NCBI RefSeq assembly: GCF_030264275.1 | Contig: NZ_CP127165.1 | Location: 2,220,001-2,284,000, forward strand | DNA: 64,000 nucleotides | Direction: 5' to 3' | From: Marivivens sp. LCG002 | GTDB lineage: Bacteria; Pseudomonadota; Alphaproteobacteria; Rhodobacterales; Rhodobacteraceae | In this document: positions 12,103 to 59,379 of the stretch, piece by piece | How positions within the stretch are numbered: the first letter of the stretch is position 1 | Layout of the letters: each line of letters opens with the position of its first letter | Position numbers and translations under genes: made by a program | The notes under the pieces: model-generated | Database searches by the model: none | What the model was told of the DNA's origin: nothing | The model's input: the letters and a program-made list of their open reading frames with translations, nothing else

Positions 12103-12889
12103 TCTTGCCTCCATCATCCGTGACATCGCAGGGGATGAGCCTGTTCGTATCGGGCTGATCCTTGGCTCGGGCCTCGGTCATCTTGCGGGTGCCGTCGAAG
12201 GTGTCGCGATCCCTTATTCCGAACTTCCCGGTTTTCCGCATGCGGGCGTATCGGGTCACAACCCCAACCTCGTCATCGGCAACCTCGAGGGAGTGCGTGT
12301 CGCGGTCTTCGGCGGGCGCGCCCACTACTACGAAAGCGGCAATCCCGCGGCTATGCGTCTTCCTTTGGAAACGCTGTGCGAGCTTGGCGCGGATACGGTT
12401 ATTGCCACCAACGCCGCAGGATCTTTGCGCGCCGACATGCCGACGGGCTCGATCATGTGCCTTACGGATCACATCAACTTTTCAGGGCTCAACCCGCTGA
12501 TCGGCGAGCAGACCGACAAACGCTTTGTTCCGATGATGGATGCCTATGAACCCGAACTCCGCACCGCGCTGACCTCGGCGGCCAAAGGCGAAAAGATCGA
12601 AATGTTCGAGGGGATTTACGCGTGGTATTCGGGCCCCTCGTTCGAAACCCCCGCCGAAATCCGCGCCATCCGAACGCTGGGTGCCGACGCCGTCGGCATG
12701 TCCACCGTGCCCGAGGTAATCCTTGCAAGGTTCCTTGGTCTGCGCGCGGCCGCCATCTCGACCATCACGAATATGGCCGCAGGGATGAGCGACGAGAAGA
12801 TCAGCCACGAGCACACAAAGGCGATGGCCCCGCTGGGTGCGGCCAAACTCGAAGTCGTTCTGAGAAGGTTCCTCCGCGATCTCAAGTAA
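12086..12889 (+). CDS. Purine-nucleoside phosphorylase
   Basis: 267-residue trimeric-type purine-nucleoside phosphorylase (PNP/MTAP family), splitting purine nucleosides with phosphate into base and ribose-1-phosphate. Motifs seen are the phosphate loop LILGSGLGHLAG (about residues 25-36), FPHAGVSGHNPNL, GRAHYYE, TNAAGSL and the base-site region YSGPSFETPAEIRA, then GADAVGMSTVPE. The start lies inside the end of the second permease gene (17-bp overlap), so it belongs to the uptake operon. It would act on the imported nucleosides. The MTA-phosphorylase alternative is less likely given the GADAVGMST motif and the context. Confidence 0.92.
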   Translation: MSKSADLASIIRDIAGDEPVRIGLILGSGLGHLAGAVEGVAIPYSELPGFPHAGVSGHNPNLVIGNLEGVRVAVFGGRAHYYESGNPAAMRLPLETLCELGADTVIATNAAGSLRADMPTGSIMCLTDHINFSGLNPLIGEQTDKRFVPMMDAYEPELRTALTSAAKGEKIEMFEGIYAWYSGPSFETPAEIRAIRTLGADAVGMSTVPEVILARFLGLRAAAISTITNMAAGMSDEKISHEHTKAMAPLGAAKLEVVLRRFLRDLK

Positions 12890-12960
12890 ATCAGGGGTTT
12901 GACACTCCAGTCAGAACGGTGTTTTTTGGGGTCTACGCGGCCCCATTGCCGGATTCCGGA

Positions 12961-13869
12961 ATGCAAATTTATCTCCCCATCGCCGAAGTTTCGGTGAACA
13001 TCTTCCTCATCCTCGGCCTCGGAGGCGTGGTCGGGATATTGTCGGGAATGTTCGGGGTCGGCGGCGGATTTCTGATCACGCCGCTTTTGTTTTTCGTCGG
13101 CATCCCACCCGCCGTTGCCGTTGCGACCTCGGCCAACCAGATTGTCGCTTCGTCCGTCTCGGGGCTGATCACCCAGATCAAAAGGCGCGGCGTCGATTTC
13201 GTGATGGGAAGCGTTCTGCTTGTCGGGGGATTGATCGGCTCGACCATCGGGGTCCAGATATTCAACCTGCTCAAAGAACTCGGGCAAGTCGATCTTCTGG
13301 TAAACCTGTGCTACGTCGTGTTCCTTGGCGTTATCGGCGGCATGATGTTCATCGAGAGCTTGAACGCTTTGCTTCGCTCCAAGAATTCTCCGCCAAAGCG
13401 GCGCAAGCACAACTGGGTCCACAACCTGCCCTTCAAGATGAAGTTCCGTATCTCGGGTCTGTATATTTCCGTCATTCCCCCTTTGATGGTCGGGCTGCTT
13501 GTCGGCCTTCTTGCGGCGATCATGGGCGTCGGCGGCGGGTTCATCATGGTGCCTGCGATGATCTATCTTTTGGGGATGCCGACCAAGGTCGTGATCGGCA
13601 CTTCGCTGTTCCAGATCATTTTCGTCGCAGCCTATACAACCATGATGCATGCCATCACCAACCAGACGGTTGACCTCGTGCTTGCGCTCTTGCTCCTGAT
13701 CGGCGGCGTGATCGGGGCACAATTCGGCACGCGCATCGGAATGAAACTCAAGGCAGAGCAGCTTCGTATCCTTTTGGCGGGCTTGGTTCTTCTTGTGGCG
13801 TTGAAGCTGGGTGTCGATCTCTTGCTCGAACCAAGCGAGCTTTATTCCATCGCGGGTATCGGCGAATGA
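12961..13869 (+). CDS. TSUP (TauE/SafE) family transporter
   Basis: 302-residue membrane protein with two homologous halves. The repeated motif is MFGVGGGFLITPLL (about residues 26-39) and IMGVGGGFIMVPAM (about 190-203), the hallmark of the TauE/SafE family, whose members export sulfite, sulfonates or related organic anions. It is joined by a 4-bp ATGA overlap to a TIGR02186 gene, a pairing I know as recurrent in alphaproteobacteria. Substrate cannot be fixed from sequence. Confidence 0.88.
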   Translation: MQIYLPIAEVSVNIFLILGLGGVVGILSGMFGVGGGFLITPLLFFVGIPPAVAVATSANQIVASSVSGLITQIKRRGVDFVMGSVLLVGGLIGSTIGVQIFNLLKELGQVDLLVNLCYVVFLGVIGGMMFIESLNALLRSKNSPPKRRKHNWVHNLPFKMKFRISGLYISVIPPLMVGLLVGLLAAIMGVGGGFIMVPAMIYLLGMPTKVVIGTSLFQIIFVAAYTTMMHAITNQTVDLVLALLLLIGGVIGAQFGTRIGMKLKAEQLRILLAGLVLLVALKLGVDLLLEPSELYSIAGIGE

Positions 13870-14624
13870 TGGCCCGCGTTCTCGCCTTTGTCTGGTGTGC
13901 GTTGGTCTCTGTGGCGGCCCATGCGGAACAAATCGTCATGGGCATGTCTCAGGACGAAGTGGCGATCACGGCGAGCTTTACCGGTTCGGAAATTCTGATC
14001 TTTGGCGCGGTAAGCCGCGACGCTCCCGCGCCTGAGAGCTCGGAACTCGAAGTGATCATCGCGGTCCAAGGCCCCAATGTCCCTGTCACGATCCGCAAGA
14101 AAGATCGGGTCGCAGGCATTTGGATCAACACGGAATCGGTCGATCTTGATATCGCGCCATCCTTTTACGCCGTCGCGACCTCGGGTCCGATCGCAGATGT
14201 TCTCCTTCCCCTCGAGGACCTCCGACATGCCGTCTCGGTCGGGCGCGTTGTGCGCAGCGCAGGGCAGAATGCCTTTAACACGGATGACTCGGTCGATGCC
14301 TTTGCGCGGATCCAAGCCAAGGATAATCTCTTGCAGATCCTCGAAGGTGCAGTGAGCATCGACGAGGACACGCTCTTTCGCGCGCGCATTTCGCTCCCTG
14401 CCAATATCACCCAAGGGGATTACAAAACGCGGATTTTCCTGACCCGCAACGGCATGGTCGTCGATCAGCTGGATACCGTCATCCCCGTTTACAAGGTCGG
14501 GATCGAGCGCTGGCTCTTTATGCTCGCGCAGGAACAAGCGGCGCTTTATGGCGCCCTGTCCTTGATCATCGCGGCATTGGCGGGCTGGGTGGCGGCGGCC
14601 GTTTTCGGGATGCTGCGCCGCTAG
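13866..14624 (+). CDS. TIGR02186 family membrane-anchored protein
   Basis: 252 residues. A signal peptide covers residues 1-21, ending AAHAEQ. A periplasmic beta-rich region follows (about 22-215), then one C-terminal membrane segment (about 222-246) and a short positive tail, RR. The start EQIVMGMSQDEVAITASFTGSEILIFG (key part SFTGSEILIFGA) is the signature of TIGR02186, a family of unknown function found next to TauE/SafE transporters. It is translationally coupled to the transporter upstream, so it is probably an accessory subunit (inference). Its end overlaps the convergent helicase gene by 4 bp. Confidence 0.85.
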   Translation: MMARVLAFVWCALVSVAAHAEQIVMGMSQDEVAITASFTGSEILIFGAVSRDAPAPESSELEVIIAVQGPNVPVTIRKKDRVAGIWINTESVDLDIAPSFYAVATSGPIADVLLPLEDLRHAVSVGRVVRSAGQNAFNTDDSVDAFARIQAKDNLLQILEGAVSIDEDTLFRARISLPANITQGDYKTRIFLTRNGMVVDQLDTVIPVYKVGIERWLFMLAQEQAALYGALSLIIAALAGWVAAAVFGMLRR

Positions 14625-16150
14625 TCCTCGGTTTCGGAACGAAGCTCGAGCGGAACGCTCGCAACACGCAAGTCATCGACAGCCAGCGGGCCAGAAGGTC
14701 GCCCCAAGCGATTGCGCACAATCCAGCGCAGCTGGTTTTCCGCCCGCGTGATGGCAACATAGGCCAATCGCTTCCAAAGAGGCTGTCCCGCTTCAACCCG
14801 CCCCATTTGAGCGGCGGCATAGATGTCAGGCGCAAAGACCTGAACCGTATCCCATTGGGACCCTTGGGCCTTATGGATCGTCACCGCAGCCCCATGCAGG
14901 AACGTTGCCCCCATGCGTGCGGCAAAGGGAATGAACGGCTCTTCATCACCCTCGTGCTCGATTTTGACGATGCTGGCGGCCGACACTTGCGGGTCCTCTG
15001 CCCCGATCACGTGCAAACGTGAAAAGCCCGGTTTTCGGCCCGGCCCGAGATAAACGACCTGCGCCCCTTTGATCAGCCCCCGCGCCTCGAGATCGAGACG
15101 CTTTTTACGGTGCTTCACAGGCAATTCGATGCCGTCACAAATAAGGGGCTCTCCCTCGAGAAGCTCGTCTTCGGGGGCGCCATACGCATTGCGGAACGCG
15201 TGGATCAAGCGGATGCGGGTCGCGTTGCGCCAAACCAGAACAGGAGAGCGCGCCATAAGATCGGCCTCAACCCGTTGGGCCCAAACCACGCGCTCGTCGC
15301 GCTTTGACGCCTCTTCGACGAGCTTTTCAAAGCGATAGAAATCCACGGTCGGATCGGCCAAAGCATGGGCAAGATCGAGAATGGGGTTATCCGCGTCCTG
15401 ACGGTGGACACGCTGGAGGACGAACCGACGGTTCGACGGCAGGCTTTCAAACACCATCCCACCTGTGCCCTGAACAGGCGGGAGCTGTGCAGGGTCCCCG
15501 AAGAGCACAAGAGTCGGGAAAATCTCCTGCAAATCTTCGAACTGCTTTGCGTCGAGCATCGAACTTTCGTCGATGAACCCGATATCGAGCGGTTCTTCGC
15601 GGCGCTTCCATCCGGTGATGAAATCCGAACCTCGAAGCCCCGCAGCCGCAAGCGCGGCAGGGATCGACGTGTTGATCTGATAGGACGCCCAAGCGCGATC
15701 AAGGGCGACATCGGTGATGCCTTCGATGACGGGACGCTCGCCCTCGCCCGCAAGCCATTCGGCAATGCGCTCGTATTCGGGATCGTAAACGGGCGTGTAA
15801 AGAATGCGGTGGATCGTTGTCGCGGGAACACCGCGATTGCGCAGCACACTCGCGGCTTTGTTCGTTGGTGCAAGGATCGCCAGAGTGCGGCGATCTTTGC
15901 GCTTTTTGCCTTCCCAGTCGCCCGAGACAACGTCGATCCCCGCCTCGACCAAGGCTTTGGTCAGCTCCGAAAGCAGCATCGTCTTGCCCGATCCGGCCTT
16001 GCCTATCACCGCGATCACACTCGATTTGTCGGGCATGGGGGGCATGAGGAGCGAGTCCTCGATATCCACACCCGCAGACCGCAAAAGTGCGGCCACGGCG
16101 TCCCAGGCTTCGGCCTGATCGGATGAGAATGTGAGAGCAGGTGCAGACAT
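14621..16150 (-). CDS. ATP-dependent RecD-like DNA helicase / AAA ATPase
   Basis: 509-residue superfamily 1B helicase-like protein. Walker A is VIGKAGSGKTMLL (about residues 48-60), Walker B/DEAD-like GFIDESSMLD (about 192-201), motif III LFGDPAQLPPVQG, and the C-terminal UvrD/RecD motifs AVTIHKAQGSQWD and YVAITRAENQL. It is compact and lacks the N-terminal regions of exonuclease V RecD, so it is an independent RecD2/TraA-like helicase of the alphaproteobacterial type. Its cellular role is unknown, perhaps repair. Convergent with the TIGR02186 gene. Confidence 0.88.
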   Translation of the reverse strand: MSAPALTFSSDQAEAWDAVAALLRSAGVDIEDSLLMPPMPDKSSVIAVIGKAGSGKTMLLSELTKALVEAGIDVVSGDWEGKKRKDRRTLAILAPTNKAASVLRNRGVPATTIHRILYTPVYDPEYERIAEWLAGEGERPVIEGITDVALDRAWASYQINTSIPAALAAAGLRGSDFITGWKRREEPLDIGFIDESSMLDAKQFEDLQEIFPTLVLFGDPAQLPPVQGTGGMVFESLPSNRRFVLQRVHRQDADNPILDLAHALADPTVDFYRFEKLVEEASKRDERVVWAQRVEADLMARSPVLVWRNATRIRLIHAFRNAYGAPEDELLEGEPLICDGIELPVKHRKKRLDLEARGLIKGAQVVYLGPGRKPGFSRLHVIGAEDPQVSAASIVKIEHEGDEEPFIPFAARMGATFLHGAAVTIHKAQGSQWDTVQVFAPDIYAAAQMGRVEAGQPLWKRLAYVAITRAENQLRWIVRNRLGRPSGPLAVDDLRVASVPLELRSETED

Positions 16151-31623: not shown

Positions 31624-31642
31624 TTTGCCGCAATGCAGCAAA
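31624..31642. promoter_or_regulatory. Ethylmalonyl-CoA pathway palindromic element, mcl2 copy
   Basis: TTTGCCGCAATGCAGCAAA is a nearly perfect 19-bp palindrome: TTTGC/GCAAA outer arms and GCA/TGC inner arms. It is the best copy of the element also found upstream of ccr and ecm. It lies 67-85 bp before the mcl2 start. The rest of 31558-31719 shows nothing else recognisable. Confidence 0.65.
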
Positions 31643-31719
31643 GGTCGCATATGAAGGCGCACAGCGGCGCCTCCAAGAAGCGGCTCCCGACCGGGATGCA
31701 CCCTGCGGGATAGCCCTCG

Positions 31720-32832
31720 TCAGGCGGTGGTCAGAAGCTCGCTCATGTCCACAACCCGCTTTTCCCTCATAGAAATCTGGGCAGCGATCCCCATCAGCAC
31801 GGCAAGTTTGCCATCCGTCGCGCTGACCTCGGGCGCGCTGCGCTCGCCCCGCACCAGTTCAAGGAATTTCTGATGCTGGTAATAGGTCGAGCCGTTATGG
31901 TCCCCTGCCTCGAGAAGCGTTGGATCGACGGGAATTTCCTGCAAGATCGGACCTTTGGGGTCGCGGGGGCTGATGATCACTTGCGAAACGGGCGGCTCAC
32001 CAAGCTCTTGGGGCCAGAAGCGTCCCGGACCGGGAACCAGCGCCTCGATCTTCCCGCTGGGACCGACGGCGCTTACCTCTTCTTGATAGCGTGAGCCCTC
32101 GGCGAACATACAGAGTTCGAGCATCGCACGCGCACCGTTGTCGAAATCGACGATCACGTAGCCATTATCGAGCATATCGGGTGTTTCACCGTCATAGCTT
32201 TCGTCGAGGTGATTGACGTCCATACCGCCCGAAGCGAGCACGCGCAGAGGCTCGGCGCCCAGAGTAAGACGCATGAGATCGAAGAAGTGGCAGCACTTCT
32301 CGACAAATGTGCCGCCGGCATAGCGATTGAAGCGGTTCCAATTGCCCACCTTCTCGAGGAACGGAAAGCGGTGTTCGCGGATGGTCAGCATTTTGATCCC
32401 GCCCGTCGCCTCTTTGGACGACCGCAAAAACTCGGCGATCGGCGGCATGTAACGATATTCCATCGCGACCCAGATCGGTGCGGGATACGTCTTGATGAGC
32501 GCATCGAGCGTGCTGAGTTGGCTCTGATCGGTAAAAACGGGCTTTTCGACCAAGACAGGCACGGGGCGCTTGGCCGCAATCTGGGCAAGCTGCTCGACAT
32601 GACGGAAATTCGGGCTGGCGATCAGGATACAATCCAGCTCGGGCTCGTCGAGAAGCGCATCGATGCTTTCGACAAACCGCGCATGCGGCGCGAATTCGCC
32701 AGCTGCCTCTCGCATGCCCTGATCCGGCTCGAAGATCACTGTCACCTTTGTATCGGGCAAAAGAGCGATGTTGCGAAGATGCTCTTGGCCCATCATCCCG
32801 CAACCAATGATACCATAGCTCGTACTAGCCAA
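31720..32832 (-). CDS. Gfo/Idh/MocA enzyme, candidate NAD+-dependent sulfoquinovosidase
   Basis: 370 residues from a TTG that follows a perfect AAGGAGG by 5 bp. The Shine-Dalgarno overlaps the stop of the GntR gene. A longer start at 32862 is possible but lacks such a site. Rossmann motif YGIIGCGMMGQEHL opens the protein, and the dyad VLVEKPVF lies at about residues 98-105. A C-terminal Gfo/Idh/MocA domain contains GGTFVEKCCHFFDL. Gfo/Idh/MocA enzymes are oxidoreductases, but one branch (GH188) hydrolyses sulfoquinovosides through NAD+-dependent oxidation-reduction. The cluster lacks a GH31 sulfoquinovosidase, so this role fits. A simple sugar dehydrogenase is the alternative. Confidence 0.72.
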   Translation of the reverse strand: MASTSYGIIGCGMMGQEHLRNIALLPDTKVTVIFEPDQGMREAAGEFAPHARFVESIDALLDEPELDCILIASPNFRHVEQLAQIAAKRPVPVLVEKPVFTDQSQLSTLDALIKTYPAPIWVAMEYRYMPPIAEFLRSSKEATGGIKMLTIREHRFPFLEKVGNWNRFNRYAGGTFVEKCCHFFDLMRLTLGAEPLRVLASGGMDVNHLDESYDGETPDMLDNGYVIVDFDNGARAMLELCMFAEGSRYQEEVSAVGPSGKIEALVPGPGRFWPQELGEPPVSQVIISPRDPKGPILQEIPVDPTLLEAGDHNGSTYYQHQKFLELVRGERSAPEVSATDGKLAVLMGIAAQISMREKRVVDMSELLTTA

Positions 32833-32842
32833 TCCGGCCTCC

Positions 32843-33553
32843 TTATCTGAGTCGCTGCACATAGTGCGCCCGCTCGGGGTCGAACCATGTCCGCGAATAT
32901 TCGACTGATCCTTTTTGCTCGGAGTGGCTCAACCGTTCGATGTAGCCGACGGTCTCGCCAATGGGCTGCCCGAATTCATTCGGGGCCCAGTCCGGAACTT
33001 TGCCGACACGAACGGTGTCCTCGGCGTGAGAGATCCAGAACCCGAGCTGAAGCTTGTAATAGCGGTAGAGCGAATCGGAGAGGGCGAGCGGGTCGATCCG
33101 CCCTGCGTCCCCATCGAGCCATATCTCTTCCACCGCGATCGGAATGCGATTGAGAAACCTCAAGCGACGGATGCGGGTGCCGTGCGAGGCCGTGCCGAAG
33201 ACAGGAAAATCATGCGGTTTTGCCAACTCGTCGAGCGAGAGAACCCGCGCAGTCGGAAGCCCCCCACCCGACCGCAATTCAAGACGGAACATCGAATAGA
33301 TACTGTCCACCGCCGCGCCAGATCGGACATAGTTTCCAGACCCTTGGACGCGATCAAGGAGTCCCTTTTCTTCAAGTATATCCAATGCCTTACGCAGGGT
33401 GCGCACCGTGGTGAAATGCTGTTTTGCAAGCTCGCGTTCGGGCGGAAGACGGCTCCCGTTGGGAAGCCGCCCAGAGGCGATCTCGCGGATAAGCACCTCG
33501 CTTATCTGAACATAAATCGGCAGCGCCGAGGGGCTTTCGCTCTTTTGATACAT
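32843..33553 (-). CDS. GntR-family regulator with UTRA domain
   Basis: 236 residues. The N-terminal winged helix (about 10-75) has YVQISEVLIREIASGRLPNG, then LPPERELAKQHFTTVRTLRK with the typical PxERxLA...V.R.TxRxAL pattern. The C-terminal UTRA ligand domain (about 90-232) includes ARVLSLDELAKP and RIRRLRFLNRIPIAVEEIWL. HutC/UTRA members bind sugars or sugar phosphates. It is divergent from the monooxygenase gene, with TTGATAC half-sites between, one overlapping its own start codon. Probable repressor of the sulfoquinovose cluster (inference). Confidence 0.88.
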   Translation of the reverse strand: MYQKSESPSALPIYVQISEVLIREIASGRLPNGSRLPPERELAKQHFTTVRTLRKALDILEEKGLLDRVQGSGNYVRSGAAVDSIYSMFRLELRSGGGLPTARVLSLDELAKPHDFPVFGTASHGTRIRRLRFLNRIPIAVEEIWLDGDAGRIDPLALSDSLYRYYKLQLGFWISHAEDTVRVGKVPDWAPNEFGQPIGETVGYIERLSHSEQKGSVEYSRTWFDPERAHYVQRLR

Positions 33554-33623
33554 CCGGTCTTTCTCAGTTTATCAAAAAATTGATACACTATTGATCCAGA
33601 TCAAAGACACTGTTATCGATAAC
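33545..33623. promoter_or_regulatory. Divergent operator region of the sulfoquinovose cluster
   Basis: Three related half-sites: TTGATACAT (33545-33553, over the GntR ATG), GTTTATCAA (33567-33575) and TTGATACAC (33580-33588). The last two form an inverted repeat with a 4-A spacer. Two further perfect palindromes follow: TTGATC-CA-GATCAA (33591-33604) and GTTATCGATAAC (33612-33623). All lie between the divergent GntR and monooxygenase genes. Confidence 0.6.
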
Positions 33624-33683
33624 GAAAGTCAAGCGGATTTTCATTCACTATTCCGCTGGACCAACCGCCTAGAGGGAGAGCGC

Positions 33684-34841
33684 ATGATGTCCGTAGTGCC
33701 CATTACATCGGCAGACCTTGATGCCGCAGAAGTGTCTTGGTTCGCGGCACTTTGTTCGGATGATTACCAATTCCTCGGCGTGCCGGACGGCTCCCTTCGG
33801 TCCTCTTGGAACCACTGTTCAACGATTGTCAAAACGGCCGAAAATCTCGGGTTCCGCAACATCCTTTGCCCCTCGTCCTATCAGGTGGGCCAAGACACGC
33901 TCAGCTTTGTCGCGGGCTGCGCCCCGATCACATCGAAGATCAACATGCTTGCCGCCGTGCGCTGCGGCGAAATGCAGCCCATCATGCTGGCGCGCACCAT
34001 CGCTACTCTCGATCACATGCTCGAGGGGCGTCTGACCGTGAACATCATTTCCTCTGACTTCCCCGGTGAAGTCGCGGACAGCGCGTTCCGCTATCAGCGT
34101 TCCCGCGAAGTTGTCGAGATCCTCAAACAGGCGTGGACGCAGGACGAAATCAATTACCAGGGCGAAGTTTACAACTTCAGCGGCCTGACCACAGACCCTG
34201 CCCGTCCCTACCAATCGGGTGGCCCTCTGCTCTATTTCGGCGGGTATTCCCCCGACGCTCTCGAACTCTGCGGTCAGCATTGCGACGTTTACCTGATGTG
34301 GCCCGAAAAGATCGAAGAGCTCGAAGGTCGGATGAAAGCGGTGCACGCTGTCGCCGAACGCTATGGACGGACCTTGGACTATGGACTTCGGGTGCACGTC
34401 ATCGTGCGCGACACCGAAGCGGAAGCACGGGAATACGCGGACTATATCGTGTCCAAGCTCGATGCAGAGCAGGGCGACGCCATTCGCAACCGCGCGCTTG
34501 ACGCCAAATCGCTTGGTGTGAGCCATCAGGCAAAAAATCGCGAAATAGCGGATGACAAAGGCTACATCGAGCCTAACTTGTGGACAGGTGTGGGACGCGC
34601 GCGTTCCGGCTGTGGTGCTGCGATCGTCGGGTCTACCGATCAGGTTCTCTCCAAGCTGGAGGCCTATCAGAAGATGGGTATCCGTGCGTTCATTCTGTCG
34701 GGTTACCCGCATCTGGATGAAGCAGACCACTTTGGTCGCCGCGTTCTCCCGCAAATGAAAACCTGTTCGTTGCCCGAGGCTTATGGTCGTGTGCCTGCTT
34801 CGACGCCTGCGACGCCGCTTGGAATTGGAGTACGCCGCTAA
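33684..34841 (+). CDS. SsuD-like FMNH2-dependent monooxygenase, candidate sulfoquinovose monooxygenase
   Basis: 385 residues of the bacterial-luciferase-like fold. SsuD-type motifs are LLYFGGYSPDALELCGQHCD, then DVYLMWPEKIEEL, RVHVIVRDTEAEA, NLWTGVGRARSGCGAAIVG and FILSGYPHLDEAD, all aligning with alkanesulfonate monooxygenase. Such enzymes use reduced flavin and O2 to release sulfite from a sulfonate. The neighbouring reductases and sugar transporter point to sulfoquinovose, giving 6-oxo-glucose plus sulfite as in the sulfo-SMO pathway of Agrobacterium. Plain alkanesulfonate use is the alternative. A GGGAGAG site precedes the tandem ATGATG start. Confidence 0.82.
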   Translation: MMSVVPITSADLDAAEVSWFAALCSDDYQFLGVPDGSLRSSWNHCSTIVKTAENLGFRNILCPSSYQVGQDTLSFVAGCAPITSKINMLAAVRCGEMQPIMLARTIATLDHMLEGRLTVNIISSDFPGEVADSAFRYQRSREVVEILKQAWTQDEINYQGEVYNFSGLTTDPARPYQSGGPLLYFGGYSPDALELCGQHCDVYLMWPEKIEELEGRMKAVHAVAERYGRTLDYGLRVHVIVRDTEAEAREYADYIVSKLDAEQGDAIRNRALDAKSLGVSHQAKNREIADDKGYIEPNLWTGVGRARSGCGAAIVGSTDQVLSKLEAYQKMGIRAFILSGYPHLDEADHFGRRVLPQMKTCSLPEAYGRVPASTPATPLGIGVRR

Positions 34842-35734
34842 TGATGCCGCGCATCAATCTTTCGCCTGACCTCAGCTTTAGCCGTCTTGTCTATGGCATG
34901 TGGCGCTTGGCCGACGACGAAAACACGTCGCCCGCACATGTCGAAGCAAAAATTCAGCGCTGCCTTGAACAGGGGATCACCACCTTCGATCAGGCCGACA
35001 TCTACGGCGGCTATGTCGCCGAGGACGTGCTCGGAGCCGCCTTGCGGGCCAATCCCGCGCTTCGCGGTCAGATGGAGATCGTGACGAAATGCGATATCGT
35101 TGCCCCCGTTGGACGATATGCGGATGCGCCCGTCAAATACTATGACACCTCGCGCGCCCACATTGAAAAGTCTGTGGACCTTTCGCTGGCAGCGATGGGG
35201 ATCGAACAGATCGACCTCTTGCTGATCCACCGCCCCGACCCGCTTATGGATCATGCCGAAACGGGCGCTGCGCTTGACGACATCGTCAAGAGCGGCAAGG
35301 TCCGCGCCGTCGGCGTGTCCAACTTCCGTCCTTGGGACTGGGAGCTTTTGCAGTCCGCGATGAGCACACCGCTTGCCACGAACCAGATCGAAATTTCGCT
35401 GTCCGAAATTTCTCCGTTCTCCAACGGCGATCTTGCGTTCCACCAGCGACATGCGCACCCGATCATGGCATGGTCGCCGCTTGGCGGTGGCAATCTGTTC
35501 AAGGACTCGGGCTTGCTGGGTCAGCGTCTCGACAAGATCGCCGCCGCGCAAGGCGTGGACCGCGCTGCGGTCGCGGTTGCCTTTCTCCTTAGACATCCGG
35601 CCAAGATCCTGCCTGTGCTCGGCACCAACAATCTGGACCGTATCTCGGCAATTTCGGACGCGCTCAAGGTAGAGCTCGACCGCCCGACCTGGTTCGGCCT
35701 TTATGAAGCAGCGCTCGGGAACGAAGTGCCATGA
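34841..35734 (+). CDS. Aldo/keto reductase, candidate 6-oxo-glucose reductase
   Basis: 297-residue (alpha/beta)8 aldo/keto reductase. The catalytic tetrad is readable: Asp and Tyr in FDQADIYGGY (about residues 46-55), Lys in IVTKCDIV and His in LLLIHRPDP. The cofactor region SNFRPWDWEL and the C-terminal VLGTNNLDRI fit NADP(H) binding. The start overlaps the monooxygenase stop (TAATG). In the sulfo-SMO pathway an AKR (SmoB) reduces 6-oxo-glucose to glucose; position and family match, but substrate is inferred. Confidence 0.8.
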   Translation: MMPRINLSPDLSFSRLVYGMWRLADDENTSPAHVEAKIQRCLEQGITTFDQADIYGGYVAEDVLGAALRANPALRGQMEIVTKCDIVAPVGRYADAPVKYYDTSRAHIEKSVDLSLAAMGIEQIDLLLIHRPDPLMDHAETGAALDDIVKSGKVRAVGVSNFRPWDWELLQSAMSTPLATNQIEISLSEISPFSNGDLAFHQRHAHPIMAWSPLGGGNLFKDSGLLGQRLDKIAAAQGVDRAAVAVAFLLRHPAKILPVLGTNNLDRISAISDALKVELDRPTWFGLYEAALGNEVP

Positions 35735-36249
35735 CCATAATGGAACCTCAGGATCGTATGATGGAATTTGTGCCGACCGCCGAGAATACGCGCACATTGC
35801 GTGACGCCTTTGGCCGATTTGCCACCGGTGTCACGGTCGTCACCTGCGCGAGCGACGATGGCCCGATCGGCATCACCGCGAACAGCTTTACCTCGTTGTC
35901 GCTCAACCCGCCCTTGGTGCTTTGGGCCCCTGACAAGTCGTCGCGTCGTTCGCCGTATTTTCGGAGCGCGAAACACTTTGCCATTCACGTGCTGGCCCAT
36001 GACCAAGCAGAGCTTTGCTGGTCGGTCGCCAAAGATATGCACGGGCTTACAAAAGAAAATCTGGACACAAATCCCGAAGGCGTGCCGCTGATCCGCGGCT
36101 GTCTTGCGCGATTTGAATGCGTTCAACATGCCATTCATGATGGGGGAGATCATGAAATCGTCGTCGGCCGCGTGCTGCGCGCCGCGCTAAGGGAAGACGG
36201 AGACTCGCTCGCCTTTTTCAAGGGCAAGATGAATCGCTTTACGTCTTGA
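35731..36249 (+). CDS. Flavin reductase partner of the monooxygenase
   Basis: 172-residue flavin reductase-like (split-barrel) protein. Motifs are DAFGRFATGVTVVT (about residues 27-40) and IGITANSFTSLSLNPPLVLW, typical of NAD(P)H:FMN oxidoreductases of two-component monooxygenases, and AIHVLAHDQAEL. It supplies FMNH2 to the monooxygenase encoded two genes upstream. The 4-bp ATGA overlap with the aldo/keto reductase gene shows coupling. A TTGATACA half-site overlaps its stop codon, ahead of the transporter genes. Confidence 0.87.
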   Translation: MTIMEPQDRMMEFVPTAENTRTLRDAFGRFATGVTVVTCASDDGPIGITANSFTSLSLNPPLVLWAPDKSSRRSPYFRSAKHFAIHVLAHDQAELCWSVAKDMHGLTKENLDTNPEGVPLIRGCLARFECVQHAIHDGGDHEIVVGRVLRAALREDGDSLAFFKGKMNRFTS

Positions 36250-36282
36250 TACAAAAAAGAAAAAAAGAGGAATTACGTCACT

Positions 36283-36299
36283 AACTGAAATCTTCAGTT
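36283..36299. promoter_or_regulatory. Inverted repeat before the binding-protein gene
   Basis: AACTGAA-ATC-TTCAGTT has perfect 7-bp arms, 26 bp ahead of the binding-protein start, with a cluster half-site TTGATACA at 36246-36253 upstream. It may be an operator or a leader hairpin that protects the highly expressed binding-protein mRNA. Confidence 0.4.
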
Positions 36300-36324
36300 C
36301 AGCTAAGTTCAAAGGGAGGACTTG

Positions 36325-37590
36325 ATGAAGAAAGCTGCATCCAAGGTCGCACTAACGACCGCAATTCTGCTTGGCTCGACCGCCGTTTATGCAGATGAAA
36401 TTACGTTCCTGTGCTATCAGGACGGCACCGAATGCGACGTGATCGCGGGTATGCTTCCCGCTTTCACCGAAGCTACGGGCCATACCGTGAAGATCGAGAC
36501 CGTCGGCTATGACGTGATCCGCGATCAGCTCGAGAACCAGCTTCAGACCGATGCGGCCCCCGATGTCGCGCGCGTTACCAACCTCGGTGGTCTGAACCAG
36601 TATTATCTCGACATGAGCCCCTATGTGGATTCCGCCGCTTGGGAAGCCGCCTATGGCGCGACCCTTCCGTGGTTCCGCAAGCCCGGTGGCGAGGACAAGG
36701 GGATTTACGGCTGGATGACCCAGCTCACCGTGACCGGCCCCTATGTCAACGTCTCGCTCTTTGAAGACGCAGGCGTCGACATGCCCGGAGACGGGGCGAC
36801 TTGGGACGAGTGGGCTGCCGCTCTCATGCAGGTCAAAGAAGCGACCGGCATCACCGCAGGTCTCGCGATGGACCGCACCGCCCACCGTTGGGCTGGTCCT
36901 GCATTCAGCTACGGTGCCAAATTCTTTGACGACGCAGGCAACCCGATCCTCGTGGACGACGGTTTCCGCAAATATGCCGAAACCTTTGTCGGTTGGCATA
37001 CAAGCGGCCTGATGCCCGCCGAAGGCTGGCCCGCAGGCGCAGGCACCCAATACCAGAACGCAGCGCCTCTCTTCCAGTCGGGCGAAGTCGCGATGCATAT
37101 GTCCGGCTCCTGGATGATCAACAACTATGCAGCGAACATCACCGATTTCGACTGGAAAGCGGTTCCTGTTCCATGCGGTGACGGCGGTTGCGGTGCAATG
37201 CCGGGCGGCGCGGCTGTTGTAGCGTTCAAATCGTCCAAATCCCCCGAGGCAGCGGCTCAGTTCGTCGACTTCCTTGCCAAGGAAGAAAATGCAGCAGCCT
37301 TTGCCGCGCAGACCAAGAACATCACCGCGCATCAGGGTCTTCAGGCTTCGGGCATCGACTATGCGGACGCGTCCCCCGCAGTCGCAGCGGCTCTTTCGAC
37401 CTTTGCAGCCAACGCAAGCAAAGCAGCGGCCACCACGCCGCAGGCTTATACCTTCCAAGGCTATGCAAAGAACTTCGTGATCTATGGTGTTGTGCCTGAC
37501 TACATCACCAAAGCCATCACGGGCGAAATGACGCTGGATGAAGCTCTTGCTGCAATCGACGCGGACGTTGCCGCCAAGATTGCCGAATAA
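36325..37590 (+). CDS. Sugar ABC transporter substrate-binding protein, candidate sulfoquinovosyl-glycoside binder
   Basis: 421-residue family-1 solute-binding protein with a signal peptide of about 23 residues ending VYA-DE. The mature part starts ITFLCYQDGTECDVIAGMLP, then FTEATGHTVKIETVGYDVIR and DAAPDVARVTNLGGLNQYYL, the usual extracellular-sugar-binding layout. A Trp/Pro-rich GWPAGAGTQYQNAAPLFQSG segment shapes the pocket region. The ATG follows GGGAGGA; a TTG just before it is less likely. It resembles SmoF in context, but ligand identity is inferred from neighbours. 23 bp separate it from the first permease. Confidence 0.85.
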   Translation: MKKAASKVALTTAILLGSTAVYADEITFLCYQDGTECDVIAGMLPAFTEATGHTVKIETVGYDVIRDQLENQLQTDAAPDVARVTNLGGLNQYYLDMSPYVDSAAWEAAYGATLPWFRKPGGEDKGIYGWMTQLTVTGPYVNVSLFEDAGVDMPGDGATWDEWAAALMQVKEATGITAGLAMDRTAHRWAGPAFSYGAKFFDDAGNPILVDDGFRKYAETFVGWHTSGLMPAEGWPAGAGTQYQNAAPLFQSGEVAMHMSGSWMINNYAANITDFDWKAVPVPCGDGGCGAMPGGAAVVAFKSSKSPEAAAQFVDFLAKEENAAAFAAQTKNITAHQGLQASGIDYADASPAVAAALSTFAANASKAAATTPQAYTFQGYAKNFVIYGVVPDYITKAITGEMTLDEALAAIDADVAAKIAE

Positions 37591-37613
37591 CAAAACGTCA
37601 GGAGGCACCCGAA

Positions 37614-38678
37614 ATGTCAGAAGCCTTGAATGCTGCTTTTGTGGGTGCCCCCTGGCCCATATACCTTGCGGTATATCTTTTGGTCGGTTGGGTGCTCTTG
37701 CGCCCGACCGGCTCCTTGCGCGACAGGTTTGTGAGCGTCGTCGGCTGGCCCGTCGAAATGGCACAGCGTCTGTCCGGCGCGACAGGTCTCCCCTATCTCT
37801 TCCTTTTGCCGAACATGATCGTGTTCGGGCTCTTCACCTTTGCGCCGATGTTCATCAACATGGGCTTTGCGGTGACCGAAGGACAGTCCATCCTCTTTGC
37901 CGATCGTGATTTCGCGGGGCTCGACAACCTACGCCGCCTTTTGGCCGAGACACAGATCGACACGGGTGCTGCAAACTTCGAAGACGACAAATTCCTCGCT
38001 GCGGTCTATGACACTGCGACATTCGTGATTTTCCAGGTGCCGATCATGATCGCCGTTGCGCTGATCTCGGCACTTGCCCTCAACCGCAAGATCATTGCGC
38101 GCGGGTTCTGGCGTGCGGTGTTCTTCTATCCCGTCATGCTCTCACCCGTCGTCGTCGGCTTTTTGTGGAGCCTGATCCTCAAGCGTCAGGGCGTGTTGAG
38201 CCAGACCTTGATCATGTGGGGCTGGATCGACGAGCCGATCCAATGGCTGACCGATCCCGCTTGGACCATGTTCTGGTCAGTCTTCGTCTATACATGGGCG
38301 CACCTCGGCTTCTACATGCTGATCCTTCTCGCAGGTCTTCAGGCAATCCCCCGCGATGTCTATGAGGCTGCGGATATGGATGGCACCAAGCCGTGGCGCC
38401 AGCTGACCCGTATCACCATCCCCCTACTTGCTCCGACGCTTCTTGTCGTGACCGTTCTCTCGCTCATCAAAGCATTCCAGGCCTTCGAGGAACTCTACGC
38501 CATGTCGGTGCGCTGGACTTCGCTTGTGGGTTATATCTTCGAAACGTCGGGCCTCCGCGGCCAACCGACGACAAACGGACTTGGCATTGCGGCCATGGCC
38601 TCGCTCCTCGTGGCGGCGGTTCTGATCATGCTCTCCCTGCTTCAGGTCTATTTCTCCTCCAAATCGGCAAGACAATGA
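37614..38678 (+). CDS. Sugar ABC transporter permease (first, MalF-like)
   Basis: 354-residue inner-membrane protein with an extra N-terminal membrane pair (about residues 12-32 and 60-82) before the core permease domain. The EAA loop that docks the ATPase reads YEAADMDGTKPWRQLTRITI, ending PLLAP, around residues 247-270. It belongs to the carbohydrate-uptake class 1 family and pairs with the downstream permease, whose start overlaps its stop (ATGA). Confidence 0.88.
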   Translation: MSEALNAAFVGAPWPIYLAVYLLVGWVLLRPTGSLRDRFVSVVGWPVEMAQRLSGATGLPYLFLLPNMIVFGLFTFAPMFINMGFAVTEGQSILFADRDFAGLDNLRRLLAETQIDTGAANFEDDKFLAAVYDTATFVIFQVPIMIAVALISALALNRKIIARGFWRAVFFYPVMLSPVVVGFLWSLILKRQGVLSQTLIMWGWIDEPIQWLTDPAWTMFWSVFVYTWAHLGFYMLILLAGLQAIPRDVYEAADMDGTKPWRQLTRITIPLLAPTLLVVTVLSLIKAFQAFEELYAMSVRWTSLVGYIFETSGLRGQPTTNGLGIAAMASLLVAAVLIMLSLLQVYFSSKSARQ

Positions 38679-40111
38679 ACCAAGCTATTACCTTCCTCAC
38701 CCGCAAGGCAGGGGGTCAGCGCGCCAATTGGCTCGACTATTTGACCTATGCCTATTTGCTCCTTGGCGTTTTCTTGATCCTGATCCCCGTTCTGTGGCTG
38801 GCCTTGAATTCGCTCAAATCCCCTTCACAGCTTGAAAAGCAGGACCTGTCACTGCTTCCGAGCCAGTTCGAAATGGTTGCGCGCGCGACTGTGGTCTCGC
38901 CCGAGGGAAAAGAAATTTTCTTCATTCCCGATCTGCCGCAATGGGTGCTCAACTGGGATGATCTGAGCGAAGCGGAACGTGCCGAGCATGACACCCGCGC
39001 GTTTCTTGCGAACTTTGAGGGTCGGGAGCTTTATGCGCTGCGCTCCCACCTTCGGATGGTCTCGGAACTGGTGCGCGAAATGGTCGAGGTCCAAAGTCTC
39101 CCCGAGTGGCTTTTGCGCTATCCCTCCATGGCGCAGGCTTCCAAAGCCGATTTCGATGTCGATGCTGTTCTGGCGCTCCTGAACGACGAGGACCGCCGCC
39201 TCCTTTCGGAGTTCCTGAACCTGCCGCCTTATGAACCTTCGCGGCTCTCGCTCCAGATCCTCGCCTCGGCGCTCGATCCGCAAACAGGCGAAGAAACGCT
39301 CTTCGGGATTTCGAACCTCAAGGCCACGCGCGAGTTCACCCCCGCCCGCTATGTCGACAATCGAAGCGACGAAGTCCTCCAGCTCGACACAAAGTCGATC
39401 ACGATCCGCAAGGTGTTTGATCCGAGCTGGAGCAATTTCAGCGATCCGATCAAAGGCGAGGCGTTTGGCGTCAACGTCAACTTTGCCACATGTTTCACCA
39501 ACTCGGTGCTCGTGACCTTGATCGCGACAGTCCTTACGTTGCTGATCAACTCGATGGCCGCCTTCGCGCTTGCCAAATACAAGTTCCGCGGTCAGGTGGC
39601 GTTTTTCATCGTCATCCTAGCGACATTGATGGTGCCCCCGACGATCACGCTTGTCGGTGTGTTCAAGGCCGTCAACGCCACGGGGCTTTCGGGCTCGATC
39701 TGGGGCGTCATCATACCCGGTGCAGCGACGCCGACAGGCGTGTTCCTTTTGCGTCAATATATGCTCTCGATCCCTGACGAATTGATCGAGGCCGCGCGCA
39801 TGGACGCCGCCAGCGAATGGAAGGTCTATTGGCGCATCATTCTGCCGCTCGCGCTTCCTGCGCTTGCCGCGCTCGGGATCCTTTCGGTGATCTGGCGCTG
39901 GAACGATCTGATCCTGCCGCTCGTCGCGATCGCAACAACCAAAGAAGCCTATACGATCCAGCTTTGCCTCCTCGAATTCCGCGGTGAACATCTCAGCCAA
40001 GAGCACTACAGGCTCGCCATGACCATGGTCAGCCTCGTGCCTTCAACGCTCGTTTTCGTTTTCCTGCAGAAATACATCACGACCGGCATCGCCAACACGG
40101 GACTGAAATAA
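38675..40111 (+). CDS. Sugar ABC transporter permease with a large extracytoplasmic insertion
   Basis: 478 residues, about 200 longer than usual MalG-type permeases (about 280). The first membrane segment is at about 24-46. A hydrophilic, acidic, largely helical region follows to about residue 275 (for example NWDDLSEAERAEHDTRAFLA), before the core domain resumes at NSVLVTLIATVLTLL. The EAA loop is IEAARMDAASEWKVYWRIIL, ending PLALPA. The inserted block would face the periplasm. Upstream overlap ATGA; downstream overlap TAATG with the ATPase gene. Confidence 0.87.
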   Translation: MNQAITFLTRKAGGQRANWLDYLTYAYLLLGVFLILIPVLWLALNSLKSPSQLEKQDLSLLPSQFEMVARATVVSPEGKEIFFIPDLPQWVLNWDDLSEAERAEHDTRAFLANFEGRELYALRSHLRMVSELVREMVEVQSLPEWLLRYPSMAQASKADFDVDAVLALLNDEDRRLLSEFLNLPPYEPSRLSLQILASALDPQTGEETLFGISNLKATREFTPARYVDNRSDEVLQLDTKSITIRKVFDPSWSNFSDPIKGEAFGVNVNFATCFTNSVLVTLIATVLTLLINSMAAFALAKYKFRGQVAFFIVILATLMVPPTITLVGVFKAVNATGLSGSIWGVIIPGAATPTGVFLLRQYMLSIPDELIEAARMDAASEWKVYWRIILPLALPALAALGILSVIWRWNDLILPLVAIATTKEAYTIQLCLLEFRGEHLSQEHYRLAMTMVSLVPSTLVFVFLQKYITTGIANTGLK

Positions 40112-41172
40112 TGACCAATCTTGTCCTTTCGAATGTGCAAAAGACCTATGGCCAGACCGATGTCATCCACGGGATAGATCTCGATATCAAAACGGGCGAG
40201 TTCTGCGTTTTTGTCGGCCCGTCGGGCTGTGGCAAATCCACCCTTTTGCGGATGATTTCGGGCCTCGAGAGTATCTCGGGCGGCGAAGTGAAGATCGACG
40301 GAGAAGTGGTCAACCACGTGCCCGCTGCCCAGCGCGGCCTTGCCATGGTATTCCAGTCGTATGCGCTTTATCCGCATATGTCGGTGCGCAAGAACCTCAG
40401 CTTTGGCTTGGAGAACCTCAACACGCCCAAGGACGAGATCGCCCGTCGCGTCAACGAGGCTGCGCGCATGCTCCAGATCGAGCCCTATCTTGATCGCCGT
40501 CCGGGGCAGCTTTCGGGCGGGCAGCGCCAGCGGGTCGCCATCGGGCGCGCCGTTGTGCGCGAACCCAAGGTATTTCTCTTTGACGAGCCGCTCTCGAACC
40601 TTGACGCGGAACTGCGCGTCAACATGCGCCGCGAGATCGGGAACCTTCACCGTCGGCTTGGCAACACGATGATCTATGTCACGCACGATCAGGTCGAAGC
40701 GATGACGATGGCGGACAAAATCGCCGTCTTGCGCGCAGGAAGGGTCGAGCAATTCGGCACCCCGCTCGAGCTTTTCAACCGTCCCGACAACCGCTTTGTT
40801 GCGGGTTTCATCGGCTCTCCGGCGATGAATTTTGTCGACGGCAAAGTGGCAGACGGCGGGATCGCTCTTGAAAGCGGCGCGCATATCGCAATGCCCACAC
40901 GCAGCGGTGCAGGCGTTGGCGAAGCGGTGGAACTCGGGTTCCGTCCGCGTGACATTTTTCTCGATGAGAACGGAGCGCTGGAACTCACCGTCACCGAAGT
41001 CGAACAACTCGGCTCCGAAAGCTATGTCTTCGGACAGCTCGCCGACGGCAAGACCCTGACCATCCATCAGGCGGGCCAGACCACTGTGCGGATCGGCGAT
41101 CACGTCAAAGCCGCGCTCAAACCCGAGGGCCTCTATCTGTTCCGCAAGGACAATGGCCTCGCATGTTACTGA
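40111..41172 (+). CDS. Sugar ABC transporter ATPase (MalK/UgpC type)
   Basis: 353 residues. Walker A is GPSGCGKST (about 36-44), the Q-loop VFQSYALYPHM, the signature LSGGQRQRVAIGRA and Walker B VFLFDEPLSNLDA. The C-terminal TOBE/OB domain (about 240-350) is typical of CUT1 ATPases and includes FRPRDIFLDENGA. It powers the two permeases just upstream. Its last codons overlap the exporter gene by 10 bp, binding the exporter into the same operon. Confidence 0.93.
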   Translation: MTNLVLSNVQKTYGQTDVIHGIDLDIKTGEFCVFVGPSGCGKSTLLRMISGLESISGGEVKIDGEVVNHVPAAQRGLAMVFQSYALYPHMSVRKNLSFGLENLNTPKDEIARRVNEAARMLQIEPYLDRRPGQLSGGQRQRVAIGRAVVREPKVFLFDEPLSNLDAELRVNMRREIGNLHRRLGNTMIYVTHDQVEAMTMADKIAVLRAGRVEQFGTPLELFNRPDNRFVAGFIGSPAMNFVDGKVADGGIALESGAHIAMPTRSGAGVGEAVELGFRPRDIFLDENGALELTVTEVEQLGSESYVFGQLADGKTLTIHQAGQTTVRIGDHVKAALKPEGLYLFRKDNGLACY

Positions 41173-42140
41173 CCAAGGCCCATTTCCCCGGTCTTTTGAT
41201 GGCGGCTTTGGTTGCAATGTCCGCCCAGTTCATCTCGGACCACTATGGCGCACCCGTCATGTTGATGGCGATCCTTTTGGGGATTCCGTTCCAGTTTCTC
41301 TCGACAGAGGAGAGGACGGCCGCAGGCATCCAATACGCATCACGGATCGTCTTGCGGGTCGGCGTTGCACTCTTGGGGGTCAGGGTCAGCATCGACATGC
41401 TGACGGGCATCGGCGGAACCTTCGCGCTCTGTCTCGCGCTCGCGGTGGCGGCAACGATCGGGCTCGCCGTTCTCACGGCGCCCCTCTTCGCGCGTGACAG
41501 GCACTTCGGCTTTTTGGCGGGCGGCGCAGTCGCGATCTGCGGGGCCTCGGCCGCCATGGCCATCGCAAGCCTTTTGCCCAGCGACAAGTCGAGCGAGCGC
41601 GATCTGACCTTTACCGTCGTATCGGTGACGGTCGCCTCGACCGTCGCAATGATCCTTTACCCTATTCTGACGAGCCTCATCGGGCTCGACGACCAGCAAG
41701 CGGGCCTTTTCCTCGGCGGGACGATCCACGACGTCGCTCAGGTGGTCGGTGCAGGTTACTCGATTTCCGAGGAAACAGGAGATGTCTCAACGCTGGTCAA
41801 ACTCTTCCGCGTCACGCTCCTTGCGCCTGTTGTCTTTATCGGTGCGCTTGTGCTGCGCAACCAAGCGCCAATGGGCAAAGCGCCGCCGCTTCTCCCCGGT
41901 TTCGTGATCGGGTTCTTGTGCCTCGCCGCGCTCAATTCGACCGTAACCATTCCGACGGTTGCGAACGACATTATCAACACCGTCTCGCGCGCTTGCCTTG
42001 TGACTGCGGTTGCTGCCGTCGGCATGAAGACCTCTGTTCAGGAACTCCGCAACGTCGGTGGCAACGCCATCGCGATGATCTTGTCCCTGACGGTGTTCTT
42101 GGCGCTTCTTGTCTGGGCCGCGATCCGCTTCGTCGTCTAG
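41163..42140 (+). CDS. YeiH-family putative sulfate/sulfite exporter
   Basis: 325-residue membrane protein with about ten hydrophobic segments, of the Cons_hypoth698/YeiH family. Motifs are RIVLRVGVALLGVRVS, GGAVAICGASAAMAIASLLP, GLFLGGTIHDVAQVVGAGYS and a C-terminal AVGMKTSVQELRNVGG. Family members are annotated as sulfate exporters, often near sulfonate metabolism. Overlap with the ATPase gene places it at the end of the sulfoquinovose operon. There it could export the sulfite or sulfate released by the monooxygenase (inference). Confidence 0.82.
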   Translation: MLLTKAHFPGLLMAALVAMSAQFISDHYGAPVMLMAILLGIPFQFLSTEERTAAGIQYASRIVLRVGVALLGVRVSIDMLTGIGGTFALCLALAVAATIGLAVLTAPLFARDRHFGFLAGGAVAICGASAAMAIASLLPSDKSSERDLTFTVVSVTVASTVAMILYPILTSLIGLDDQQAGLFLGGTIHDVAQVVGAGYSISEETGDVSTLVKLFRVTLLAPVVFIGALVLRNQAPMGKAPPLLPGFVIGFLCLAALNSTVTIPTVANDIINTVSRACLVTAVAAVGMKTSVQELRNVGGNAIAMILSLTVFLALLVWAAIRFVV

Positions 42141-42883
42141 AGGGTCGACACACCGTCCCAGATCAGCTTGACCGACACGACAAAGAGTGCCCCGATCACG
42201 ACGCGGAAAAAGACCTTGTCCGAAATGACCTTGACCATCTTGACGCCAACAAACACGGCGATCGAGGCGGGGATCATCAGCACAAGCGCGATCTTGATAC
42301 TGGCAAGGTTGATCTGACCCAGCATGTAATAGGGAATGAGCTTGATCGCGTTGATATAGGCAAATGTGATCGTAGAGGTGCCTGCAAAGACGATTTTGGA
42401 CAGTCGCTGCGGCAAGACCCAGATTTGATAGGGCGGCGCGCCTGCATGGCTGACAAAGCTGGTAAAACCAGTCAGAACACCCCAGAAAATCCCGCTCGAC
42501 AGCTTGCCCTCACGCTCTTCACCCGTGAGGGTGTCGCGAACGATCATATAGAGCGCAAACAAGAAGCCCACGATGCCTACGATCAAGGTGACAAAAGCCT
42601 CGGGCACGATATGGGCGGTCAAACCCCCTATGGCGACGCCGACCGTCGCGCTTGCCGCAATGATAAGCACAACCCGTTTGTTGAATTCGTGCCGATAGGC
42701 ATAAAGGCCGAACATATCCGACACAACATAAACAGGGAGCAAAAGCCCCGCTGCGACCACAGGGGAAATGACCAGCGACAGGAGCGGCACCGACAGCATT
42801 CCGACCACGGGCCAGCCGCCCTTGCTCACCCCGACACAGATCGCGGCCACAGTGGCCAGCACCCAAAACGTCGTTCCTTCCAT
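42137..42883 (-). CDS. TSUP (TauE/SafE) family transporter
   Basis: 248 residues from the ATG at the conserved start, ATVAAICVGVSKGGWPVVGM, which has GGAGG upstream. A longer start at 42994 would run through a palindromic operator. The TSUP repeat appears as SKGGWPVVGML near residue 20 and GFTSFVSHAGAPPYQIWVLP near residue 150. About seven or eight membrane segments. It converges on and overlaps the YeiH-type gene by 4 bp. It may export sulfite from the neighbouring cluster, but lies on the opposite strand and shares its upstream interval with mdh. Confidence 0.85.
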   Translation of the reverse strand: MEGTTFWVLATVAAICVGVSKGGWPVVGMLSVPLLSLVISPVVAAGLLLPVYVVSDMFGLYAYRHEFNKRVVLIIAASATVGVAIGGLTAHIVPEAFVTLIVGIVGFLFALYMIVRDTLTGEEREGKLSSGIFWGVLTGFTSFVSHAGAPPYQIWVLPQRLSKIVFAGTSTITFAYINAIKLIPYYMLGQINLASIKIALVLMIPASIAVFVGVKMVKVISDKVFFRVVIGALFVVSVKLIWDGVSTL

Positions 42884-42964
42884 GAAACCTGTCGCCTCCA
42901 AAACAGAATCAGTGCCGATCCAGGGGTTGATTCCCCTCCCCAACGGCGCCTTTGTCGCCCGATT

Positions 42965-42974
42965 TGTGATCACG
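42965..42974. promoter_or_regulatory. TGTGATCACG operator upstream of mdh
   Basis: TTTGTGATCACG matches the sdhC/sucC operator with one base off at the palindrome edge. It lies 123-132 bp before mdh, in the divergent interval with the TSUP gene. No second site at 21 bp. Confidence 0.6.
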
Positions 42975-43084
42975 TTTAGCGCAAACATATCCAATGTTGT
43001 AGTCCAATACCCTCGCCGCGCCGCAGCACCCTTGATTGAGGCGCAACAAAGGACTAGGCAATGCCCCGTCTTTAACCCCTATGA

Positions 43085-59189: not shown

Positions 59190-59265
<76 letters not shown>

Positions 59266-59303: not shown

Positions 59304-59379
<76 letters not shown>

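Follow-up and report, generated by a model that had tools for sequence, protein, structure and literature searches.

Results

Gene content of the cluster

We analysed a 64,000-nt stretch of the genome of Marivivens sp. LCG002 (contig NZ_CP127165.1; hereafter the window, in which all positions below are counted), reading gene content, gene order, homology, conserved contacts, an insertion and a conserved intergenic element directly from the DNA. An open reading frame (ORF) list and Pfam matches place ten genes in two divergent units at 31720-42140 (Table 1). Their core, a GH188-type sulfoquinovosidase with SmoA-, SmoB- and SmoC-like proteins, very probably acts on sulfoquinovose (SQ), and the ten genes are predicted to form a complete cluster of the sulfoquinovose monooxygenase pathway (sulfo-SMO, also sulfo-ASMO). 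The GntR/UTRA and GH188 genes share 20 bp and are transcribed away from the remaining eight, among which the overlaps measure 1 bp (monooxygenase and aldo/keto reductase, AKR), 4 bp (AKR and flavin reductase), 4 bp (permeases 1 and 2), 1 bp (permease 2 and ATPase) and 10 bp (ATPase and YeiH-type gene). The ORFs, overlaps and divergent units named in the original prediction, which had been made from the sequence, were all found as described. For the monooxygenase, the mechanical ORF list gives a TTG start at 33591; we adopted ATG 33684 (or 33687), because homology starts there and 33591 lies inside the conserved intergenic element.

Table 1. Features of the predicted sulfoquinovose cluster and one locus used for comparison
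Feature	Position	Strand	Basis
GH188-type NAD+-dependent sulfoquinovosidase, SqgA-like	31720..32862	-	Pfam GFO_IDH_MocA; 66% to 8zn9, 50% to 8qc2
GntR/UTRA transcriptional regulator	32843..33553	-	Pfam GntR + UTRA
Conserved intergenic element AATTGATACACTATTGATCCAGATCAA	33578..33604	+	right part TTGATCCAGATCAA = 33591-33604, fits FNR-type box
Sulfoquinovose monooxygenase, SmoC-like	33684..34841	+	Pfam Bac_luciferase; 79% to 7olf, 77% to 7oh2
6-oxo-glucose (6-dehydroglucose) reductase, SmoB-like AKR	34841..35734	+	Pfam Aldo_ket_red; 63% to 7bbz
Flavin reductase, SmoA-like, expected FMNH2 supplier	35731..36249	+	Pfam Flavin_Reduct
Periplasmic sugar-binding protein of ABC importer	36325..37590	+	Pfam SBP_bac_1/8
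ABC permease 1, UgpA/MalF type	37614..38678	+	BPD_transp_1
ABC permease 2, UgpE/MalG type, 478 aa	38675..40111	+	BPD_transp_1 at residues 295-470
ABC ATPase, UgpC/MalK type	40111..41172	+	ABC_tran + OB_MalK + TOBE_2; UgpC subfamily model above cut-off
YeiH-type putative sulfite/sulfate exporter	41163..42140	+	Cons_hypoth698 (PF03601) 209.1 bits
Insertion relative to empty site of a congener	31640..42151	.	L213 (genome G004) homology ends 31639, restarts 42152
Binding-protein/sulfatase locus of G500	L163:6533-9337 with 9511-13344

The core enzymes

Among solved chains, the monooxygenase matches 7olf and 7oh2 at the identities given in Table 1; these were deposited as methanesulfonate sulfonatase and alkanesulfonate monooxygenase, and we take them to be the SmoC proteins of Rhizobium and Agrobacterium. 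A quick tree of 51 rows separated all 47 SmoC-type rows, including the window protein and both solved chains, from three annotated SsuD with a support of 99; a narrower fork of 38 rows with the window and both chains received a support of 84 only, and SfnG and one SsuD stand on very long, adjoining branches, so that only the broad split was used. Identity to the three annotated SsuD is 32-34%, and the SsuD equivalog model TIGR03565 scores 246.9 bits, far below its cut-off of 518.2. The placement outside SsuD proper that the original prediction had called for is therefore what both tree and model gave, and an SsuD-type alkanesulfonate operon was rejected on these two grounds.

The AKR, whose gene overlaps that of the monooxygenase, matches 7bbz, a chain deposited as aryl-alcohol dehydrogenase and presumably SmoB. 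The joint presence of SmoB and SmoC is the criterion for the sulfo-SMO pathway described in PMC13372026, and by identity and gene adjacency both are found in the window. The flavin reductase partner of the pathway is present as well, recognised by its Flavin_Reduct domain and the overlap of its gene with the AKR gene; its best NCBIfam model, FerA, reached 201.9 bits, below the cut-off of 260.

For the gene at 31720-32862 in the opposite unit, the original prediction had proposed a Gfo/Idh/MocA enzyme, which was right for the fold and missed that the protein is a glycosidase, namely an NAD+-dependent sulfoquinovosidase of GH188, as indicated by its identity to 8zn9 and 8qc2 over nearly the full length and by its contact residues. 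8qc2 is FlSqgA, and the SQ contacts given for ArSqgA by Kaur et al. 2023 (PMC10755693) comprise a sulfonate triad (R166, L170, K172) and further K107, Y136, E189, H193 and H321. The counterparts in the window protein are K107, Y136, E163, R165, L169, K171, E188, H192 and H322, each unchanged in all 98 aligned rows (the window and 97 others with an identity of ≥50% and a coverage of ≥85%, some genes being represented twice); Glu163 of that paper aligns with a Glu counted as 164 on the solved chain, the residue being present under both counts. According to Backlund and Higgins 2024 (PMC11465081), the sulfonate triad is found in 96-98% of GH188 sequences. The window protein shares the published contacts with the SqgA enzymes (FlSqgA 8qc2, ArSqgA 8qc3, also 8zn9), and its sequence suggests no difference from them of relevance to the mechanism. 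It is the one close GH188 copy in the genome, eight other matches being only 25-30% identical. GH31 (PF01055) has no match anywhere in the genome, which fits the complementary distribution of GH188 and GH31 described in PMC10755693. Together, the identity to SmoC- and SmoB-type chains, the tree and the linked GH188 gene support the sulfo-SMO assignment of the original prediction.

Insertion between conserved genes

The cluster had also been predicted to be inserted in central-metabolism genes, and six empty sites in congeners bear this out. Each of the six congeners examined has mcl, a TauE gene and mdh side by side without the cluster, the distance from mcl to mdh being 1.0-2.0 kb versus 11.5 kb in the window. 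The cluster thus corresponds to a 10.5-kb insertion, best delimited by L213, in which about 36 bp lie between the window-homologous ends; in L211 a gap of about 170 bp separates the alignment ends, and the other four congeners have extra sequence at the site. The TauE-like gene at 42137-42994 was considered as a cluster member and rejected, since a TauE gene (54-65% identical) stands between mcl and mdh without the cluster in the six congeners. No foreign base composition was seen, with a G+C of 0.56-0.61 inside the insertion and 0.54-0.61 outside. SmoC occurs in five of the seven genus genomes including that of the window, and in G002, G004, G005 and G006 it lies at another genomic position.

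Conservation of the core and exchange of the importer

A scan for SmoC relatives matched at least 596 stretches, of which at least 579 passed confirmation; the best 80 served as a sample of loci that leans to close relatives; core genes were accepted at 50% identity and 40% coverage, and importers were sought within 9 kb downstream. The complete five-gene core (GH188, GntR, SmoB, SmoA, SmoC) is present in 69 of the 80 loci, an arrangement far from chance. The genes that follow vary: 57 loci have a TRAP (tripartite ATP-independent periplasmic) importer downstream of SmoA, the position taken in eight loci by the ABC (ATP-binding cassette) importer cassette of the window, while one (L015) has a binding-protein fragment only, three have another ABC type and 11 none or something else. 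A YeiH-type gene lies downstream of the intact ABC cassette in 8/8 loci and accompanies TRAP importers in 8/57; in 43 of the 57 TRAP-type loci a MauG-like di-haem protein follows the importer. In L060, for example, the MauG-like protein has 593 aa (L060:15604-17385).

The three loci with other ABC genes downstream are L048, L052 and L063, and the presumed binding protein of this type of system has no Pfam match; because an alpha-amylase-family gene stands among the ABC genes in L048 and L063, these probably belong to an adjacent alpha-glucoside system. Several further arrangements were observed. L015 (Yoonia sp. I 8.24) has an intact core and, at about 12600-14744 between SmoA and YeiH, a decayed importer, of which part of the binding protein (41% coverage) and a short piece of the ATPase are left. 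L050, L074 and L124 have SmoC (84-87% identical) and a GntR gene, with SmoB and GH188 not found alongside, which may reflect another use or a splitting of the pathway. In L018/L123 (same genus, genome G006), a relative of the binding protein (39%) is encoded about 6 kb beyond the cluster genes. A plasmid-borne sulfo-SMO cluster is found on pMaD9 of Marinovum algicola (L179, 5673-16818), with a distant (43%) ABC cassette, an esterase gene and a second Gfo/Idh/MocA gene. The corresponding Marinovum permease has about 350 aa; in permease 2 of the window the stretch ahead of residue 295 is without a Pfam match.

We mapped importer types on a quick 88-row tree built from the concatenated core proteins, in which counts of changes cannot separate gain from loss. 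The ABC label requires three changes, also when starred branches alone are counted, and the TRAP label five (four on starred branches). The main ABC clade of 12 rows groups the window with three congeners, with Yoonia, Loktanella and Epibacterium, with two other Rhodobacterales and with a locus whose contig stops ahead of the importer. The ABC loci of Thalassococcus (L046) and G422 (L161) fall outside this clade.

Across 295 genomes of the family, SmoC was found in 123 (E up to 1e-180) and a relative of the binding protein in 50 (E up to 1e-30). Both occur in 42 genomes, and in 16 of these they lie within 15 kb of each other, with about 0.3 expected, a comparison that is descriptive since the genomes share kinship. 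Linkage is found in all five genomes whose binding protein is at least 70% identical, with gene starts 2.6-2.8 kb apart, and in 11 of the other 37. In G500, a 56% relative and its permease genes diverge from two sulfatase genes, with glucuronate isomerase beyond and no SmoC nearby; these neighbours hint that this branch of binding proteins may handle sulfo- or sulfated sugars.

The best solved match of the binding protein is GacH (E 2.4e-9). None of the structure codes that we take to be those of SmoF (7nbz, 7ofy, 7qhv, 7yzs, 7yzu) appeared in the 58 solved sequences listed for it up to E 10 or, in a profile search, among the 60 of 91 matches listed, both searches being without a positive control. 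An AlphaFold (AF2) model of the protein had a mean pLDDT of 42, too poor for a fold comparison, and was set aside. The YeiH-type protein scores 122.8 bits with TIGR00698, below the cut-off of 232.6.

The divergent intergenic region

The two units are separated by 130 bp, containing an element common to most relatives. TTGATRCACNATTGAT occurs in 83 of 94 unique intergenic regions (0 in shuffles) and TTGATN4ATCAA in 62 (0.02 in shuffles), while TTGATRCA is missing in eight, most of which have a near variant such as TTGATACC. The 19-base core of the element has one exact occurrence in the genome, the sole other match having 3 mismatches. Its right part, TTGATCCAGATCAA, fits what we take to be the consensus of an FNR-type box, with 0.08 such sites expected in the window. 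An FNR-type protein is a candidate binder, and control by oxygen sensing would suit a desulfonase that consumes O2. The FNR reading is weakened because two of the five perfect boxes in the genome are inside coding sequence and because the best-conserved positions are the tandem TTGAT half-sites and not the inverted arm. Another of the perfect boxes (G000:C1:2358115, L194:1616) lies between genes read as coxB/ctaC and a divergent tldD, and one precedes an aminotransferase gene, according to our own reading of the ORF translations. The GntR protein is just as good a candidate for binding; its gene adjoins SmoC in most of the 80 loci, and we lean towards a pairing of this regulator with the element. 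A scan for sigma-70 promoters gave one weak site, fewer than in shuffles. Elsewhere in the window, two tandem tRNA genes of equal score are found at 59190-59262 and 59304-59376.

Discussion

The cluster is predicted to work as follows. The ABC importer would take in sulfoquinovosyl glycerol (SQGro) or SQ, a cargo that we regard as probable, and the GH188 enzyme, using NAD+, would free SQ from its glycoside by transient oxidation at C3. SmoA would make FMNH2, with which, and O2, SmoC would convert SQ to 6-oxo-glucose and sulfite; SmoB would reduce 6-oxo-glucose to glucose for central metabolism, and the YeiH-type protein would export sulfite or sulfate. As long as no SQ-type ligand is present, the GntR/UTRA protein would act at the intergenic element and keep both units repressed. 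The substrates, the direction of transport and the pairing of regulator and site are thus expectations drawn from homology and gene context.

Several observations weigh against this interpretation. Pathway activity, binding and expression in Marivivens sp. LCG002 are predictions, and so are export and the ion carried by the YeiH-family protein. The binding protein is unlike SmoF by the searches made, and its proposed substrate follows from linkage only. SmoC and the binding-protein relative are unlinked in 26 of the 42 genomes with both, and eight genomes have such a relative without a SmoC match; the one in G523 is 72% identical. Among the 80 loci, 11 are without one or more core genes at the thresholds used, in part owing to a contig end or an identity near the threshold. 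L161 has the ABC cassette with no YeiH gene detected, and L018/L123 have the core and a YeiH-type gene with no adjoining importer.

One alternative is that the core degrades SQ and the linked ABC importer carries another cargo, e.g., a sulfated or neutral sugar, SQ entering otherwise. It would account for the missing SmoF-coded match among the solved sequences listed, for the G500 relative beside two sulfatases away from SmoC, and for the unlinked genomes. Against it stand the constant spacing to SmoC in the five genomes with a close binding protein, the location of the cassette at the position of the TRAP importer and the three importer changes on the core tree, and we consider it improbable. 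A different sulfosugar, such as sulfofucose, might be used by the same chemistry, given that substrate specificity is predicted and that a Paracoccus has a pathway for sulfofucose (PMC12421959); as described there, however, that route belongs to the Entner-Doudoroff type, includes a sulfolactate lyase and is not a monooxygenase pathway, and the GH188 contacts to the SQ sulfonate and hydroxyls are present in the window, which makes another sugar very unlikely. A general SsuD-type operon for scavenging sulfur from alkanesulfonates is barely credible: the monooxygenase belongs to the same flavin-dependent superfamily and does match TIGR03565, but the score is far below the cut-off, identity to the SmoC-type chains exceeds that to SsuD more than twofold, and neither GH188 nor SmoB would be needed for an SsuD-only function.

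We therefore retain the sulfo-SMO interpretation and compare the cluster with known systems. The Agrobacterium set reportedly consists of SmoC, SmoB, a flavin reductase, a GH31 sulfoquinovosidase and a dedicated ABC importer. By its sequence the window would share with it SmoC, SmoB, the flavin reductase, a dedicated ABC importer and an oxidative desulfonation that yields glucose and sulfite; it differs in having GH188 for GH31, a binding protein not recognisable as SmoF and a YeiH-type gene in the operon. The original claim of exactly the Agrobacterium set was too strong, since no SmoF-type match could be recognised for the binding protein and the same core occurs elsewhere with other importers. 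The binding protein was also to be compared with SmoF relatives; it looks to be outside them by sequence, in searches without a positive control. Given the other importers that accompany this core in related clusters, such a placement leaves the pathway assignment standing.

The sulfo-SMO pathway, reviewed in PMC12890257, is described as prevalent in the Roseobacter clade (PMC13372026), and GH188 as near universal in the sulfo-SMO clusters of that clade (Kaur et al. 2023, PMC10755693). The window has the same core and belongs to the same broad group; GH188-bearing clusters of this kind are already published, and its importer is a variant, an ABC cassette in contrast to the TRAP importer, often followed by a MauG-like protein, of most related loci. 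A more far-reaching picture, in which the core is a fixed cassette with repeated swaps of TRAP and ABC importers, the ABC type a new family of sulfosugar importers with relatives also serving sulfatase loci, and the O2-consuming core under both an FNR-type oxygen box and a GntR repressor, is offered as speculative and, taken as a whole, doubtful.

Sulfolipids of plants and algae carry sulfoquinovose as their head sugar, and the sequence indicates that one member of Marivivens should use this sugar fully within a single cell, yielding glucose carbon and sulfite. The analysis also suggests that the type of binding protein is a poor marker of SQ clusters and that SmoC together with GH188 is a good one. 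With empty sites in the congeners and changes of importer among related loci, the mobility and modularity of such clusters become directly testable.

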